From: Pseudoclavibacter sp. 13-3
Lineage (GTDB): Bacteria > Actinomycetota > Actinomycetes > Actinomycetales > Microbacteriaceae
Length of the DNA stretch: 64,000 nt
Assembly (NCBI RefSeq): GCF_021168475.1
Contig: NZ_JAJOZT010000001.1
Location: forward strand, 372,001 to 436,000
Direction of reading: 5' to 3'
The notes below the pieces were generated by a model, which was not told the DNA's origin, ran no database searches, and saw only the letters and a list, made by a program, of their open reading frames with translations. Below, in pieces: positions 32,243-48,384 of the stretch (positions are counted from its first letter, which is position 1; each line of letters opens with the position of its first letter). A program made the position numbers and the translations under genes.

Positions 32243-32815
32243 TCAGTGGTGCGCCATCAGTTCGAGACCGACGACCAGCAGGCCCAGCGCGGCTTCGGCC
32301 ACCATCACCATGAGCTTCTGTCGCACCGACAACTTCAGGCGCCGCGCGGCGGCGAATCCGATGCCCACCAGCCAGACGATCAGCAGGGCAGTCGAGAGGC
32401 GCAGCGCGATCTCCAGCTTCCAGAAGTCTGCCCAGGCGGCCATCAGCATCAGAATCGGCAGGGCGATGGCCGTGGTCGCACCGACAGACGTCGATGCGGC
32501 GCGGCGCGCCTCGCGTGCGGTGAACATGCGCTCATGCGTCACGAAGTGCGCGAGAATCTCGGCGAGGAACATGGCCAGCACCGAGCCGATGACGGTGACG
32601 ATCAGCGTCGCGACCGCCTGCGGCGGGGTGGCGTCTGTGTGCGATGCGAGCGTCAGCACAACGGCGAGCGCGGTGAAGGTGATGTAGATGCGCTCTTTGA
32701 GCCGCGAGGCGGCCTCGTCGCGCCCCTCGCCGGGCTTCTCCCCCGCAGGGGCGCCCTGAGTCGCGGGCGCCGGCACGGGCTTCGAGGATACTCGGGATGC
32801 TGATTCGTCGCTCAT
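32243..32815 (-). CDS. integral membrane protein of unknown function
   Basis: A 190-residue protein: about 40 hydrophilic Pro/Ala/Lys-rich residues, then four hydrophobic segments near 45-60, 68-92, 110-130 and 138-185. Between the second and third lies HFVTHERMFTAREARRAAS, a likely cytoplasmic loop. I do not recognise the family; the segment arrangement is like several actinobacterial VIT-type or DUF membrane proteins, without a diagnostic motif. It lies 2 bases upstream of glycerate kinase in the same operon, but nothing ties it to glycerate transport, for which four short segments would be too few. Confidence 0.65.
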   Translation of the reverse strand: MSDESASRVSSKPVPAPATQGAPAGEKPGEGRDEAASRLKERIYITFTALAVVLTLASHTDATPPQAVATLIVTVIGSVLAMFLAEILAHFVTHERMFTAREARRAASTSVGATTAIALPILMLMAAWADFWKLEIALRLSTALLIVWLVGIGFAAARRLKLSVRQKLMVMVAEAALGLLVVGLELMAHH

Positions 32816-32904
32816 GTCTGCTCAGCCTAGCCGCAACAAATGTCGAAAGGGTCGACGGGCTACGGTGGGATCAAGCCATACCAGCAGAGAGAGGACGCTG
32901 CCTG

Positions 32905-33081
32905 ATGTTTCAGCTCGAACGCATCGACGAAGAGCCCGCCGAGAGCGAACGCCTGCGCGCTCCGCACGATGAGCTCTGCGCCTGCGGCGTCCCAGACTTG
33001 CGCGCACAGCGTGCATCTCCGGGGTCGAAGACGAACCGTACCCGCGTTGCACGCGACCGTCCGCAGAGGTCGCAGTCATGA
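32905..33081 (+). CDS. small uncharacterised ORF coupled to the holin-like gene
   Basis: A 58-codon frame starting at ATG 32905 after GAGAGAGGA, ending in an ATGA overlap with the holin-like gene. The peptide is charged and Arg-rich with a Cys-Ala-Cys in the middle and has no recognisable domain. The ribosome site and the 4-base overlap suggest it is translated and couples translation to the next gene; the amino-acid make-up is otherwise unremarkable. Confidence 0.4.
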   Translation: MFQLERIDEEPAESERLRAPHDELCACGVPDLRAQRASPGSKTNRTRVARDRPQRSQS

Positions 33082-33482
33082 TCCGCTTCATCACGCAGGC
33101 GGTGCTGACCGCGATCGCCCTCTGGATCACCGCCGCAATCGTTCCCGGCATCACGGTCATCCCCTTCGCTGGCGAGCCGCCGATGAACAGCATGCTGACC
33201 TATCTGCTGGCGGCTGCGGTCATCGCCTTGGTGAACGCCCTCTTCGGTACCGTGCTGCGCTTCATCAGCATCCCGCTCTACATCGTGACACTGGGCCTGT
33301 GGTCGTTCGTGCTCAACGGTCTGCTGCTCTGGACGGCCAGTCTGATCAGCAGCGCGTGGGGCTGGGGGCTGACCATCGACCATTTCTGGTGGTCTGCCGT
33401 GTTCGGCGCGATCGTGCTCGGATTCGCCAACTGGCTGGTCGAGCTGGTCGCCCGAGCGGTCGGCATCGGCACGCACGACTGA
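33078..33482 (+). CDS. phage holin family 4 (YvlD-like) membrane protein
   Basis: A 134-residue protein with four hydrophobic segments, beginning MIRFITQAVLTAIALWITAAIVPG and containing ALVNALFGTVLRFISIPLYIVTLGLWSFVLNGLLLW, which is the pattern of the YvlD / holin-4 superfamily. These are chromosomal membrane proteins connected with envelope stress in some bacteria, and the name does not imply a phage. It is the second gene of a pair with the short frame upstream. No other phage gene is near. Confidence 0.85.
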   Translation: MIRFITQAVLTAIALWITAAIVPGITVIPFAGEPPMNSMLTYLLAAAVIALVNALFGTVLRFISIPLYIVTLGLWSFVLNGLLLWTASLISSAWGWGLTIDHFWWSAVFGAIVLGFANWLVELVARAVGIGTHD

Positions 33483-33593
33483 ACAGAGCGCCCTCGGCGC
33501 ATACGGGCTGGTGCTCATACGCATTCAGGTCTATAGTGTGCGTTTGTCGGCCGCAATGTGCAGCTGATGAGGTGTTCGAGAGGAGGTTCCGCC

Positions 33594-33665
33594 ATGATGG
33601 CACGCAAGACATCGTTCGTCGCATCAACACGAATTATTATTCCGTCCCACTCGTCGGCGGAATGA
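33594..33665 (+). CDS. candidate leader peptide upstream of the MHS transporter
   Basis: A 23-residue peptide beginning Met-Met-Ala-Arg-Lys, with GAGGAGG 7 bases in front, the strongest ribosome site of the area. Residues 14-16 are three consecutive isoleucines, all encoded by ATT, a codon little used in this GC-rich DNA. Ribosome slowing there could influence folding of the terminator about 90 bases downstream. There is no homology to a known leader that I can name. Confidence 0.4.
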   Translation: MMARKTSFVASTRIIIPSHSSAE

Positions 33666-33737
33666 TCGAACACCAGATGCTCGGGCTCGCCTGCGAAGGC
33701 AGAGCTCGACAGGTGTGATCACCGATCCGCACATCCA

Positions 33738-33764
33738 GGCCCTGTCTTTGAGACAGGGCCTTTT
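33738..33764 (+). terminator. intrinsic terminator before the MHS transporter gene
   Basis: A perfect 10-bp stem (33738-33747 with 33751-33760), a 3-base loop TTG and a TTTT tail (33761-33764). It lies between the leader reading frames and the transporter start 54 bases further on, so either it ends the holin-like transcript or it works as a conditional terminator. Confidence 0.8.
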
Positions 33765-33817
33765 CACTGCCCCACCAGCCGGTGTCGCAGTCAGGATGTG
33801 AAAGGTGAAACACGACA

Positions 33818-35173
33818 ATGTCCAGCACACTGGATGAGCAGACGGCCACAAGTCGAATGCCGAGAAGCACTCATGCCGCCACAGCGGCAGACACAGCGGC
33901 GAATCTGCAGCGAGACTCGGCCCGCAAGGTGATCGCCGCCTCGATGATCGGAACGGCCATCGAGTTCTTCGACTTCTACGCCTACGGCACCGCTGCGGCG
34001 AACTACTTTCCCACCGTCTTCTTTCCGCAGGCCAGCGCGACCGTCGGCGTGCTCGCATCGCTGCTGACCTTCGCGGTCGCGTTCGTGGCTCGGCCGTTCG
34101 GCTCACTGCTCTTCGGGCACTTCGGCGACCGTATGGGTCGCAAGACCACGCTGGTCGTCTCCCTGCTCACCATGGGCACCGCGACAGTGCTGATCGGAGT
34201 GCTGCCCGGTTTCGCCCAGGCCGGGGTCTGGGCGGTCGTGCTGCTGTGCCTCTGCCGGTTCTGTCAGGGCATCGGCCTGGGCGGCGAGTGGTCGGGTGCC
34301 GCACTGGTCGCCACTGAGAACGCCCCGTCGAACCGCCGTGCGCTCTACGGCTCGTTCCCCGAGCTGGGCGCTCCGATCGGCTTCGTGCTCTGCAACGGCC
34401 TGTTCCTGCTGCTCGAGACGGTCTGCACCCATGATCAGATGCTGGCCTGGGGCTGGCGCGTGCCGTTCCTGCTCAGCGGAGTGCTCGTCGTGATCGGCCT
34501 CTGGGTTCGCGTCACGATGGAGGAGACTCCGGTGTTCAAGCTCGCCGCCGCGCAGAACCGCACGGTCAAGGCCCCACTGGTGACCACGATGCATGACCAC
34601 TGGCGTGCCGTCGTTCAGGGCACGCTCGTCGTCGCAGTGACATACACGCTCTTCTACATGCTCACCACGTGGTCGCTGTCCTACGGCACGAAGACGCTCG
34701 GCTTCAGCAATCGGCAGTATCTGGCCATGCTGATGATCTCGGTGGTGGTGTTCGCGGGGTCGATCGTCGGTTCGTGCGTACTCGCCGATCATTGGGGGCG
34801 CAAGAAGGTGCTGACGCTCGCCTCGGCCGGCATGGTCGTCTTCAGCTGCTTCTTCGGCGCCATGCTCGGGCACCTCAGCGTCGCACCCGTGATGGTCTTC
34901 CTGTGCGTCGGATTCCTGCTGATGGGCGCCGCTTTCGGCCCGCTGGGCGCGTTCCTGCCCGAACTCTTCCCGGCACATGTGCGGTACACCGGTTCAGGCA
35001 TCGCCTACAACCTGGCCGCCATCGTCGGTGCCGCGTTCGCCCCGTCGATCGCCACCGCGCTCGCCCGAAACGGCGTGCAGAACGTCGGCCTCTATCTCGG
35101 CCTGATGGCCGTGCTCAGTCTCATGGCGCTGTTCACCTGTCGTGAGACGAAAGACGTCGACTACCGCAGGTAA
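33818..35173 (+). CDS. MFS transporter, metabolite:H+ symporter (MHS) family
   Basis: A 451-residue transporter with 12 predicted membrane segments after a 35-residue hydrophilic start. MHS markers are SMIGTAIEFFDFYAYGTAA in segment 1, the GHFGDRMGRKTTLV loop between segments 2 and 3, GLGGEWSGAAL in segment 4-5 and the ADHWGRKKVL repeat in the second half. MHS carriers import proline, betaine, dicarboxylates or aromatic acids with protons; the substrate here is open. It lies behind an attenuator-like leader and converges with the alpha/beta hydrolase gene (13-base overlap). Confidence 0.9.
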   Translation: MSSTLDEQTATSRMPRSTHAATAADTAANLQRDSARKVIAASMIGTAIEFFDFYAYGTAAANYFPTVFFPQASATVGVLASLLTFAVAFVARPFGSLLFGHFGDRMGRKTTLVVSLLTMGTATVLIGVLPGFAQAGVWAVVLLCLCRFCQGIGLGGEWSGAALVATENAPSNRRALYGSFPELGAPIGFVLCNGLFLLLETVCTHDQMLAWGWRVPFLLSGVLVVIGLWVRVTMEETPVFKLAAAQNRTVKAPLVTTMHDHWRAVVQGTLVVAVTYTLFYMLTTWSLSYGTKTLGFSNRQYLAMLMISVVVFAGSIVGSCVLADHWGRKKVLTLASAGMVVFSCFFGAMLGHLSVAPVMVFLCVGFLLMGAAFGPLGAFLPELFPAHVRYTGSGIAYNLAAIVGAAFAPSIATALARNGVQNVGLYLGLMAVLSLMALFTCRETKDVDYRR

Positions 35174-36006
35174 CCGGCGACGCTCTGCGGCGTCTCCTGC
35201 TGCGGAGCCTGCAGCACCGCGGCATCATGGGTGGCCACGTGCTCTGCGAAGAGCCCCGGCCACGCCATGATGCCGTACGGCGTCTGGGCGACCACGAGCC
35301 GGCTGCCCCGGATCAGCGCGTTGAGCGCCTGCGCCGTCGTCATCGGGTGAGCAGGGTCGGCGATCCAGGCGAGAATCAGCGTCGGGGCGGCGATGCCTGC
35401 GAGGGATGCCGGATTCGGCAGATCCGCTTCGGCGGCACCCCGCAGCACTGTCGGCAGCAGCCCCTCTGCCACCGCCGGCCGGGTGTCGGGCACGTCGGCG
35501 AGCGCCGGCGGAGTCACGTTCCTGTGCCCCTGCGCGATGAACGCTTCGATGCCGGCGCGTTCCACCAGCTCGGCGCTGGCCAGATAGTTCTTCGCCTGTG
35601 CCCGTCGGGTGTCCCAGGCCGTCGGCGGTGAGACCAGGGTCAGGCTGGCGAAGCGTGACTGATCACGCACGGCCGCGTGCAGCAGCGTGCCGCAGCCCAT
35701 CGACTGCCCCACCCCGTGCACGGTCTCACCCGGCGCCACATGGTCGAGCAGCGCAAGCAGGTCGTCGGCGAGCCGGCTCCAGCGATAGCTGGCCGCTTCG
35801 AGCGATCCGGTCGAACGCCCATGGCCGCGGGCGTCGTAGCGCAGCACGCGGTGGTCGCGAAGCGCCCGCCCGTGGTCGAGCCCGAGACGCGCATCGCGCT
35901 CGCGGCACGAAGTGAGGCCGTGCAGCTGCACGACGAGCGGCCCGTCGTCGCCACTGATGTCGTAGTCGATCTTCGCGTCGCTCAGCTCCAGCACGGGCAC
36001 GGTCAC
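35161..36006 (-). CDS. alpha/beta hydrolase, catalytic histidine not evident
   Basis: A 281-residue alpha/beta-hydrolase-fold protein. LHGLTSC supplies the oxyanion loop, GQSMG (about residue 104) carries the nucleophile Ser, and IADPAHP the acid. Where the family normally has Gly-His near the C-terminus (after SRLVVAQ) this protein reads TPYGIMAWPGLF, so the usual histidine is replaced by Ile; two later histidines (AEHVATH) are alternatives. The start is a GTG, which leaves some doubt. Substrate unknown. It converges with the MHS transporter. Confidence 0.75.
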   Translation of the reverse strand: MTVPVLELSDAKIDYDISGDDGPLVVQLHGLTSCRERDARLGLDHGRALRDHRVLRYDARGHGRSTGSLEAASYRWSRLADDLLALLDHVAPGETVHGVGQSMGCGTLLHAAVRDQSRFASLTLVSPPTAWDTRRAQAKNYLASAELVERAGIEAFIAQGHRNVTPPALADVPDTRPAVAEGLLPTVLRGAAEADLPNPASLAGIAAPTLILAWIADPAHPMTTAQALNALIRGSRLVVAQTPYGIMAWPGLFAEHVATHDAAVLQAPQQETPQSVAGYLR

Positions 36007-36095: not shown

Positions 36096-37493
36096 GTGCG
36101 TCTGACGAACATCACCCGAGTCACGCTGCCCGCGGGCCACGTGCGCCACTATGCCGTCACGATCGGCGACGTGGTGCGCGAGCACGTGCCGATCTCGTTC
36201 GACCAGCGACGCCACGTCGGCGAGGGTGATCGCCCGGGCTCCTGGATGGCTCTGGCCTTTCGGCTGCCGCGCCATGTCACTGCTGATCAGCTGGGCGATG
36301 CCTGGGTCGACGTGGTGCGCAGACACGGCACCATGCGCACGGTGTTCTCGCGGATGCACAACGGCGCGCTGCAGCTGACCGAGCACGCGGTGAGCGCCGG
36401 CAGCTGGCATGAGCATCCTCGCTCTCCCGGCCAGCTGACGAGGGATGCTGTGCGTGAGATCCTCGATGCGCACTGCCGCCCCCTGTCGCGTCCGTCGCAT
36501 CGGCTGGTGCTGATCGACCCTGCGAACGATGCGGCAGACTCCGCGCAGACCGTCGTGATCGGCTCCGATCACTCGCATGTCGACATGTGGTCGGTGCTGC
36601 TGCTCGCCCGCGACCTGCTGGCGGCTCTCGATCCGTCCGCCGTTCACGACGACGTGCTGATGCGTCTCGAGACCGGACGACCAGCTGCTCCCGGTACCAC
36701 CGACGCGACGGCGGCATCCACGTCGCCTGACGAAGCGCCCGACTTCGCCGACCACACCGCAGCCCTCGCCGCACGCCCGGCGGCCACGCCCGAGGTGCTC
36801 GAGCGCTGGTCTGAGATCCTCGCGGCCGGCGATGGGCTGCTGCCCACGCTTGCGGTCGACCTCGGAGATCTGGCGCACCCTGTGCCCGAGGTGGTCGAGG
36901 TGCGCGACATCCTCGATGCCGATCGCCTGGAGCTGCTCTCGACGCAGGCTGCGGCTCTGGGGGTGCGACTGCTGCACATGGTGCTCGCCGATCTGGCCAG
37001 CGTCACCCTGAGCATGACCGGGCAGCCGCTGCGAGCGCTGTTTCCCGTGCACAGCCGCTACGAGCCGCGCTGGCATGACGCTGTCGGCTGGTTCGTGACG
37101 AACTCGGTGATCGAGTGCACGTCAGATGATCCCCGTGAGTGTCGCCAGGATGTCCAAGACGCGCTCCAGCTCGCGGCGACGCCGCTGGCGGGGATCTTCG
37201 ACCCCCGCGGCGGCATGCCTGCCGGGCCGGGGATGTTCGCCATCTCATGGCTCGACACCCGTCGGCTGCCCGTGCAGCTGCCGGCAGACCTCGCGACGCA
37301 GTACGTCTCGGCGTCGCTGCGGGTCGACGGCGTGATGATCTGGTTCGTCGTGAGCCCGACCGGCTTGCACCTGCGCTGCCGCTACCCAGACACGCCGCAG
37401 GCGCGCGCAAGCATGCGCGCCTGGCTCGAAGCCGTCGTGCATCGCCTGCAGGAACGCACCCGGCACGACGCAGTGGAGCACCGCGCGAGCTGA
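36096..37493 (+). CDS. stand-alone condensation-domain (CoA-dependent acyltransferase fold) protein
   Basis: A 465-residue protein resembling NRPS condensation domains and PapA-type acyltransferases. The active-site motif HxxxD is present as His-Ser-His-Val-Asp near residues 158-162. The start has REHVPISFDQRRHVGEG, like the opening of condensation domains, and the second half has LFPVHSRYEPRWHDAVGWFVTNSV, a typical latch/floor-loop region. It begins at a GTG only 7 bases after a TACAGT -10 candidate, so the message may be leaderless. No adenylation, carrier or polyketide gene is nearby, so it may make an ester or amide of a free acyl-CoA; the product is unknown. Confidence 0.75.
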   Translation: MRLTNITRVTLPAGHVRHYAVTIGDVVREHVPISFDQRRHVGEGDRPGSWMALAFRLPRHVTADQLGDAWVDVVRRHGTMRTVFSRMHNGALQLTEHAVSAGSWHEHPRSPGQLTRDAVREILDAHCRPLSRPSHRLVLIDPANDAADSAQTVVIGSDHSHVDMWSVLLLARDLLAALDPSAVHDDVLMRLETGRPAAPGTTDATAASTSPDEAPDFADHTAALAARPAATPEVLERWSEILAAGDGLLPTLAVDLGDLAHPVPEVVEVRDILDADRLELLSTQAAALGVRLLHMVLADLASVTLSMTGQPLRALFPVHSRYEPRWHDAVGWFVTNSVIECTSDDPRECRQDVQDALQLAATPLAGIFDPRGGMPAGPGMFAISWLDTRRLPVQLPADLATQYVSASLRVDGVMIWFVVSPTGLHLRCRYPDTPQARASMRAWLEAVVHRLQERTRHDAVEHRAS

Positions 37494-48311: not shown

Positions 48312-48384
48312 TGGACCTGAGGGGACTCGAACCCCTGACCCCCTGCATGCCATGCAGGTGCGCTACCAGCTGCGCCACAGGCCC
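48312..48384 (-). tRNA. tRNA-Ala (GGC anticodon)
   Basis: A 73-base cloverleaf on the minus strand. The acceptor stem GGGCCTG pairs with CAGGTCC and contains the G3-U70 wobble that identifies alanine tRNAs. The D arm is GCGC-AGCTGGTA-GCGC, the anticodon stem CCTGC/GCAGG encloses the loop ATGGCAT (anticodon GGC), and the T arm is AGGGG-TTCGAGT-CCCCT. The discriminator is A at 48312; no CCA is encoded. Neighbouring rsfS is a usual companion in actinobacteria. Confidence 0.97.

Follow-up and report, generated by a model that had tools for sequence, protein, structure and literature searches.

A gene for a transporter of the MHS family in Pseudoclavibacter sp. 13-3 (contig NZ_JAJOZT010000001.1) is preceded by a short reading frame with three successive isoleucine codons and by an inverted repeat with a T run, which raises the question of whether this leader is an attenuator, which amino acid it would sense and what the transporter would import. 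The stretch of DNA analysed, referred to as the window, comprises 64,000 nt and covers positions 372,001-436,000 of the contig on the forward strand.

Anatomy of the leader

The first-pass annotation of this locus had listed a -10 element TATAGT, the Shine-Dalgarno (SD) sequence GAGGAGG, frames of 23 and 18 codons that overlap by ATGA and a 10-bp terminator followed by TTTT, and all of these were confirmed base by base (Table 1). The terminator stem has 11 bp if A33737-T33761 is counted. On both strands of the 64-kb window, uORF1 is the only frame with three successive isoleucine codons, counted from either of its two ATGs and among frames of 7-60 codons with SD-like purines before the start. 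The folding energy of the leader RNA is 4.9 sd lower than that of its own shuffles, none of 200 being as low, and the pairing of segment A' in the window is part of a long hairpin at 33571-33675. A simple scan revealed no promoter-like sites in 32800-35500. A random short ORF next to an unrelated terminator could imitate such a leader, as short ORFs and hairpins are common and the simple scan listed two terminator-like sites (1.1 in shuffles), neither of which is that of the leader, which the T-tail rule of the scan passes over; however, a chance assembly is hardly conceivable for a leader that recurs in two phyla at 75/80 orthologue loci, comes with two structures that exclude each other and stands before suitable targets (see below). 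The gene directly upstream of the leader (33078-33482, + strand) belongs to PF04020 (4-TMS holin-like superfamily IV), and a protein with only a sub-threshold match to the Condensation domain is encoded at 36096-37493 (+).

Table 1 Features of the leader and the transporter gene, with positions in the window.
Feature	Position	Strand	Basis
-10-like TATAGT	33532-33537	+	read from sequence; TATACT in related species L034; no recognisable -35; no sigma-70 match
Segment A' (SD region), complementary to uORF1 end 33656-33675	33571-33593	+	fold; duplex -29.8 kcal/mol
Shine-Dalgarno GAGGAGG of uORF1, 7 nt before ATG 33594	33580-33586	+	sequence
uORF1, 23 codons, MMARKTSFVASTRIIIPSHSSAE, stop 33663-33665	33594-33665	+	sequence and comparison with relatives
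Control codons ATT ATT ATT (Ile), at 33633, 33636 and 33639	33633-33641	+	sequence; conserved in relatives
Segment 1 (B), last uORF1 codons	33650-33660	+	alignment A1, pair counts, energies
uORF2, 18 codons, overlaps uORF1 by ATGA	33662-33718	+	sequence; conservation poor
Segment 2/3 hairpin (C hairpin), includes some of GACAGG	33678-33711	+	-20.4 kcal/mol
Segment 3 GACAGG, complementary to terminator 5' arm CCTGTC 33741-33746 (putative antiterminator)	33708-33713	+	sequence; counterpart in A1
Intrinsic terminator, stem 33738-33747/33751-33760 plus A33737-T33761, loop TTG, TTTT 33761-33764	33737-33764	+	sequence; -19.9 kcal/mol
MHS-family transporter, YhjE-like, predicted Ile/Val:H+ importer	33818-35173	+	sequence comparison; function by relationship to E. 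coli YhjE (PMC12708883)

The transporter and the distribution of its leader

The transporter scored 415 bits with TIGR00883, the metabolite/H+ symporter group, which is below the cut-off of 443. Identity to YhjE of E. coli amounted to 53.6% over 420 residues, to ShiA and KgtP to 35 and 30%; the protein is closer to YhjE than to these two by identity and than to ProP in the tree only. For YhjE, a report of December 2025 described import of L-isoleucine and L-valine coupled to protons, on the basis of measured transport, and the same report ties the residues T43, N178, Y265, S271, T276 and M359 to the choice between isoleucine and leucine or to docking (PMC12708883). All six are kept in the window and at 51/51 actinobacterial leader loci; V290 is replaced by Tyr in the window and at these loci, and T273, which differs in the window too, by Ser or Ala. 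In Bacillota, Phe replaces Y265 in ten of 28 rows and Ile replaces T276 in two; one row is gapped. In a leaderless actinobacterial paralogue (L110), three of these six positions are changed. N178, Y265 and M359 are also kept in 28/28 leaderless homologues from Microbacteriaceae, and the pocket therefore belongs to a wider YhjE-like group and not to its leader-bearing members alone. Judged from this comparison, the window transporter is likely to import isoleucine and valine. PMC12708883 also names N77 in YhjE; residue 77 of the MG1655 protein (NC_000913) is Arg, and the other nine residues compared agree.

Relatives were taken from a collection with one genome per species, and the best 80 of 341 comprised 52 actinobacterial and 28 Bacillota loci. 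Upstream of the transporter gene, CGAATTATTA was present in the leader frame at 51/52 actinobacterial loci, L110 being the exception, and an isoleucine-rich leader, e.g. MLATRAAIIRIIIISAIII or MKTNTTFNANTIIVRVVVII (each followed by a stop), was found at 24/28 Bacillota loci. A leader with at least two successive isoleucine codons was found at 51 actinobacterial and 24 Bacillota loci, together 75/80, and the orthologues bearing it belong to Pseudoclavibacter, Bifidobacteriaceae, Lactobacillaceae and Sporolactobacillaceae. Two of the four Bacillota misses (L075, L085) lie at contig ends with less than 350 nt of upstream DNA; at the other two (L090, L092) no leader was found. A leader of this kind was absent from all 28 Microbacteriaceae homologues (47-53% identity); in L014, a frame that starts with TTG contains two isoleucine codons, and there is no terminator. 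Two of four genomes of the same genus carry the leader. In the related Pseudoclavibacter sp. CFCC 11306 (L034) the leader region is 88% identical over 383 bases, and the part from the SD to the terminator, with the leader ORF, isoleucine codons, segments and terminator, is nearly unchanged.

The constant parts of the actinobacterial leaders are the strong SD (49/51), the distance from the first isoleucine codon to the leader stop, which is 9 codons in 45 of the 47 aligned rows and 10 in both Pseudoclavibacter rows, and the tail of the peptide, which reads RIIIPSSLAD in 21/51 and RIISPSSLAD in 11/51; the third isoleucine codon is changed to Ser in 15/51. Such constancy of the tail is what one would expect if a small molecule made the nascent peptide itself stall the ribosome, but the tail codons double as segment 1, so that RNA pairing can explain it, and the Bacillota leaders end quite differently (IIISAIII, RVVVII, EIIII) with the same layout. 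Peptide arrest is, therefore, highly improbable. We give slightly less credence still to a riboswitch or T-box, in which the RNA would sense a ligand or uncharged tRNA directly and the short ORF would be incidental. The leader structure is complex and stable, as in such elements, but at the gathering threshold Rfam matched nothing in the window except one tRNA (48312-48384) and no family, T-box and other leader families included, at the loci of 20 of the 80 relatives. Moreover, what is constant across the phyla, by eye, is the isoleucine-coding frame and the order of the segments and not an RNA core, and isoleucine makes up 32.5% of the residues in 24 lactobacillus-group leaders. The second frame, uORF2, had also been claimed as part of the leader. 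It is present in the window, but its ATGA overlap was found at 3/51 actinobacterial leader loci; a conserved coupled leader was rejected on this ground, and uORF2 is probably not a conserved functional part.

In a tree of 70 proteins, all 35 leader-bearing rows formed one clade (95/81) with the leaderless paralogue L110 as sister. The tree took in 35 of the 80 loci and none of the four leaderless Bacillota loci (L095 was left out, as its translation from the start of the match ran into a stop after 10 residues, and 44 others were not entered so that the tree stayed small), and L110 and YhjE were flagged as long branches. A pattern for the leader core was found in 79/112 Bifidobacterium-group genomes, in single copy in all but three, and the reversed pattern, which served as control, in 4/112; the 33 genomes without the pattern were counted regardless of whether they have the transporter. 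The RNA model of the actinobacterial leader, R2, gave 86.8 bits to the window copy, which is in its training set. Under stricter filters, R2 matched over 394 sampled genomes of the class only the genome of the window and, weakly, one other (G331; E 1.6e-4), which is presumably a chance match. The ilvB gene of the window organism itself has no isoleucine/valine leader of the kind found before the MHS gene. Two Bifidobacteriaceae MAGs (L035:2003-2130 and L036:2206-2340) have a shorter version in which the T run comes after the post-leader hairpin, perhaps a simpler layout.

Competing RNA structures and the proposed mechanism

The leaders were aligned by phylum, which gave alignment A1 with 47 actinobacterial rows and alignment A2 with 23 Bacillota rows. 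A1 is without L035, L036 and L042 (terminator not found by the scan; divergent layout), the leaderless L110, L051 (segment same as in L050) and L063 (long insertion), and A2 is without L113. Five segments that would compete for one another can be distinguished: segment 1, segments 2 and 3, which form the hairpin after it, and segments 4 and 5, which form the terminator. Their order is common to both phyla, and by eye there is no extended shared sequence; in actinobacteria, segment 1 coincides with the final codons of the leader ORF, and in Bacillota it lies just 3' of the leader stop. In A1, 93.6% of the cells were paired in the antitermination state (1:2 and 3:4) as compared to 37-52% in slid controls, and 90.2% in the termination state (2:3 and 4:5) as compared to 40-59%. 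The single elements of A1 reached 81.8% (2:3 hairpin), 94.4% (3:4 helix) and 98.6% (terminator stem). In A2, 93.2% of the cells were paired in the termination state and 88.6% in the antitermination state.

Covariation in relatives, the check that the first-pass annotation had called for, exceeded all 500 shuffles for both states in A2, with scores of 0.422 versus 0.240 (termination) and 0.331 versus 0.243 (antitermination). The pairs with double changes in A2 (15 versus 7.4 and 8 versus 2.9, respectively) were also above all 500 shuffles; these shuffles ignore relatedness, which alone can raise scores, and slid controls, which keep relatedness, gave 32-55%. In A1, the score of the termination state was above all 500 shuffles, that of the antitermination state was not (113/500 as high), and segment 1 is also coding there. 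Thus, comparison argues for a competing antiterminator, clearly in Bacillota, by covariation, and in Actinomycetota at the level of pairing only. The leader frame and the alternative pairing, on whose conservation the first-pass annotation had made its reading depend, are both kept in relatives (75/80 loci; A1 and A2).

A further pairing involves the part of A' that lies between the SD and the start codon. In 49/49 rows it pairs with segment 1 better than shuffled sequence, and also better than species-swapped pairs, where 0/2000 permutations were as low, a value that relatedness may have favoured; L035, L036, L042 and L110 were omitted from this comparison. The stretch before the isoleucine codons (A1 columns 9-14) paired with segment 1 in 82.2% of cells without excess over shuffles and was dropped as a partner.

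The attenuator that the first-pass annotation had seen before an MHS transporter gains support from the leader and the alternative pairings in two phyla, the linkage to ilvC and ilvD and the relationship to YhjE. The leader, its isoleucine codons, their spacing, the competing pairings of the relatives and the target genes all come from sequence comparison; from them we infer ribosome stalling and antitermination, and the leader is, with good probability, a transcription attenuator by which the supply of charged tRNA-Ile governs a YhjE-like Ile/Val:H+ symporter, whose substrate is that predicted by the likeness to YhjE. If isoleucine is ample, the ribosome would reach the leader stop and cover segment 1, so that 2:3 and 4:5 form and transcription terminates. 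If isoleucine is short, the ribosome would stall at the first isoleucine codons (9-10 codons from the stop in the rows of A1) and leave segment 1 free; 1:2 would then form, segment 3 would be released to pair with segment 4, the terminator would be blocked and the importer made. In bifidobacteria, antitermination would perhaps also yield the downstream ilvC. If the leader is not translated at all, segment 1 could pair with A', which should likewise favour termination. Given the usual ribosome footprint, stalling at the first or second isoleucine codon keeps all or most of segment 1 accessible and a ribosome at the stop covers it, which would explain why the third isoleucine codon could be changed to Ser in 15/51 leaders.

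Equilibrium folding of the window's own RNA with ribosomes placed on it failed to reproduce a switch, though a computed switch is not a defining feature of an attenuator: the probability of the terminator was 0.98 without ribosome and with a ribosome at each isoleucine codon or at either stop. Segment 1 of the window has three possible partners, namely segment 2, A' and, through the stretch 33657-33674, positions 33712-33730. The last pairing is the one that 33657-33674 prefers when segment 1 is free; of the 2:3 hairpin and the 1:2 duplex, the former is the more stable (-20.4 as against -15.3 kcal/mol). Counterparts of the pairing of 33708-33713 with 33741-33746, proposed in the first-pass annotation as alternative to the terminator, exist in relatives; in the window, the terminator is thermodynamically the stronger of the two. 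Among the A1 rows, stalling of the ribosome lowered the terminator by more than 0.1 in 15/47 and left it about equal in 24; in eight it was raised by over 0.1, contrary to the direction expected. With RNA only to just past segment 3, 1:2 beat 2:3 with the ribosome at the first isoleucine codon in 24/47 rows, at the second in nine and at the third or at the stop in 0/47; in the window it never did so. Equilibrium folding ignores the order of transcription and is a weak test, ambiguous for the Bifidobacterium rows too.

These values could mean that only the leaders of the relatives switch and that the lineage of the window has drifted to a fixed terminator or a translation-coupled leader with lower basal expression and no sensing of isoleucine. 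The constant 0.98 of the terminator, the dominance of 2:3 over 1:2 and the presence of the leader in just 2/4 genomes of the genus would agree with drift, but the ORF, isoleucine codons, segments and terminator are nearly unchanged in a second species, R2 gives the window copy 86.8 bits, with the window being part of the training set, and the folding that speaks for drift is ambiguous in Bifidobacterium as well. We consider drift unlikely, though less so than the explanations dealt with above, and keep to the attenuator: its segments are present in the window copy, where switching is putative.

Target genes, related systems and a possible shared cassette

Downstream of the transporter gene, on the same strand, ilvC is found at 49/51 Bifidobacteriaceae loci with a gap of 219-582 nt, and the two genes are perhaps co-transcribed in bifidobacteria. 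One Bifidobacterium-group genome (G233) has the leader directly before ilvC (L169), again before a BASS/PanS-like carrier (L168) and, in a weak third copy, upstream of an MHS transporter (L170). The model of the Bacillota transporter leader had 32 matches, in 22/23 lactobacillus-group genomes; 20 were training copies, and the other 12 lie before MHS transporters (five), ilvD (five) and a gene like L-lactate dehydrogenase (one), with one unplaced. The ilvD genes were identified by NCBIfam in the three scanned and by likeness in two, and their five leaders contain 20% Leu, 18% Ile and 16% Val.

The BASS/PanS-like carrier of G233 (L168:3371-4438, - strand), which has its own isoleucine leader, is below both NCBIfam cut-offs, and a carrier of this kind directly follows ilvD in a lactobacillus-group genome (L198:2095-3072, +). 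It is a candidate carrier of branched-chain 2-oxo acids. The branched-chain amino acid (BCAA) leader at L206 precedes the gene like L-lactate dehydrogenase (497-1435, +; below cut-offs), which possibly encodes a hydroxy acid dehydrogenase of BCAA breakdown.

Attenuation by leader peptides is already known; a target among MHS carriers, the five-segment layout and the spread over two phyla were not found in print. The mechanism shares with trp-type attenuators, as described in PMC1262725 and PMC10272879, the stall-or-run decision on control codons, alternative hairpins and an intrinsic terminator, but differs in an extra segment (1:2 / 2:3 / 3:4 / 4:5), so that a fully translated leader would mask segment 1. 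The ilvBNC leader of Corynebacterium (ilvB-II motif; PMC10272879) and the ilvB leaders (PMC1262725) likewise combine an ORF of BCAA codons with a terminator before a BCAA gene in Actinomycetota. Here, however, the target is a transporter (in relatives also ilvC, ilvD and a BASS carrier), isoleucine codons dominate and the layout, compared by description, has five segments. The survey of 2005 (PMC1262725) included B. longum, and the word "transporter" is absent from its text. In Bacillota, the Leu-rich attenuator of S. aureus (PMC5794164) also acts by a leader peptide on BCAA genes, but on those of synthesis, and is set apart by its description. According to PMC2965389, Bacillota usually use T-boxes, and ordinary leader peptides are a notable find there. 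Finally, yhjE of E. coli encodes the same type of MHS importer of L-isoleucine and L-valine and is repressed by isoleucine among others, but by Lrp at the promoter, and the word "leader" is absent from the main text of its description (PMC12708883). The first-pass annotation knew of no leader of such type for MHS carriers, and the literature searched, which covered few subscription journals, yielded no description of an isoleucine leader before the gene of an MHS carrier, nor of the same leader before ilvC or ilvD in bifidobacteria or lactobacilli.

Two origins of the leaders in the two phyla come into question. In favour of shared descent are the clade formed by the transporters and the order of the five segments, which both phyla have in common; since the leaders of the phyla have no extended sequence similarity, they may also have converged. 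We tentatively suggest, at somewhat less than even chances, that an inherited and portable cassette for the sensing of isoleucine, made up of the leader with its five-segment logic and the YhjE-like transporter, has passed between Actinomycetota and Bacillota and was copied before ilvC, ilvD and the BASS/PanS-like carrier, giving an attenuation regulon of two phyla. The attenuator model would supply a regulatory logic and, by way of YhjE, a likely substrate for a transporter that many bifidobacteria and lactobacilli have and for which family models offer no name more specific than metabolite/H+ symporter. Further, it predicts the same control by isoleucine for ilvC, ilvD and the BASS/PanS-like carrier in lineages with the leader before them, and would add to Bacillota a case of leader-peptide attenuation that is matched on orthologous genes in Actinomycetota.

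Published expression data of B. longum bear on this model. BBMN68_1264, described as an MFS carrier with substrates that are not clear, was up 16.86-fold during acid adaptation together with ilvC2 (BBMN68_1263; 7.08-fold; PMC3517610), and it was also up under oxygen (PMC6244367). With the primers published for BBMN68_1264, the MHS gene behind the leader in B. catenulatum (L040) would give the stated product of 190 bp, at one mismatch in all; an exact match was found in none of 112 genomes. The inductions are consistent with the attenuator model, for which they are not proof, the conditions being acid and oxygen and not isoleucine starvation, and the model would offer a reason for the joint rise of BBMN68_1264 and ilvC2.

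A motif GGACA[ACT]AATCC, possibly a mini-hairpin, was seen at 40/80 loci (L034-L113). It lies 85-156 nt before ilvC at L040:4044, L053:4256, L073:4176, L083:2278 and L107:3986, and one copy is located inside the leader of L048 (2398).
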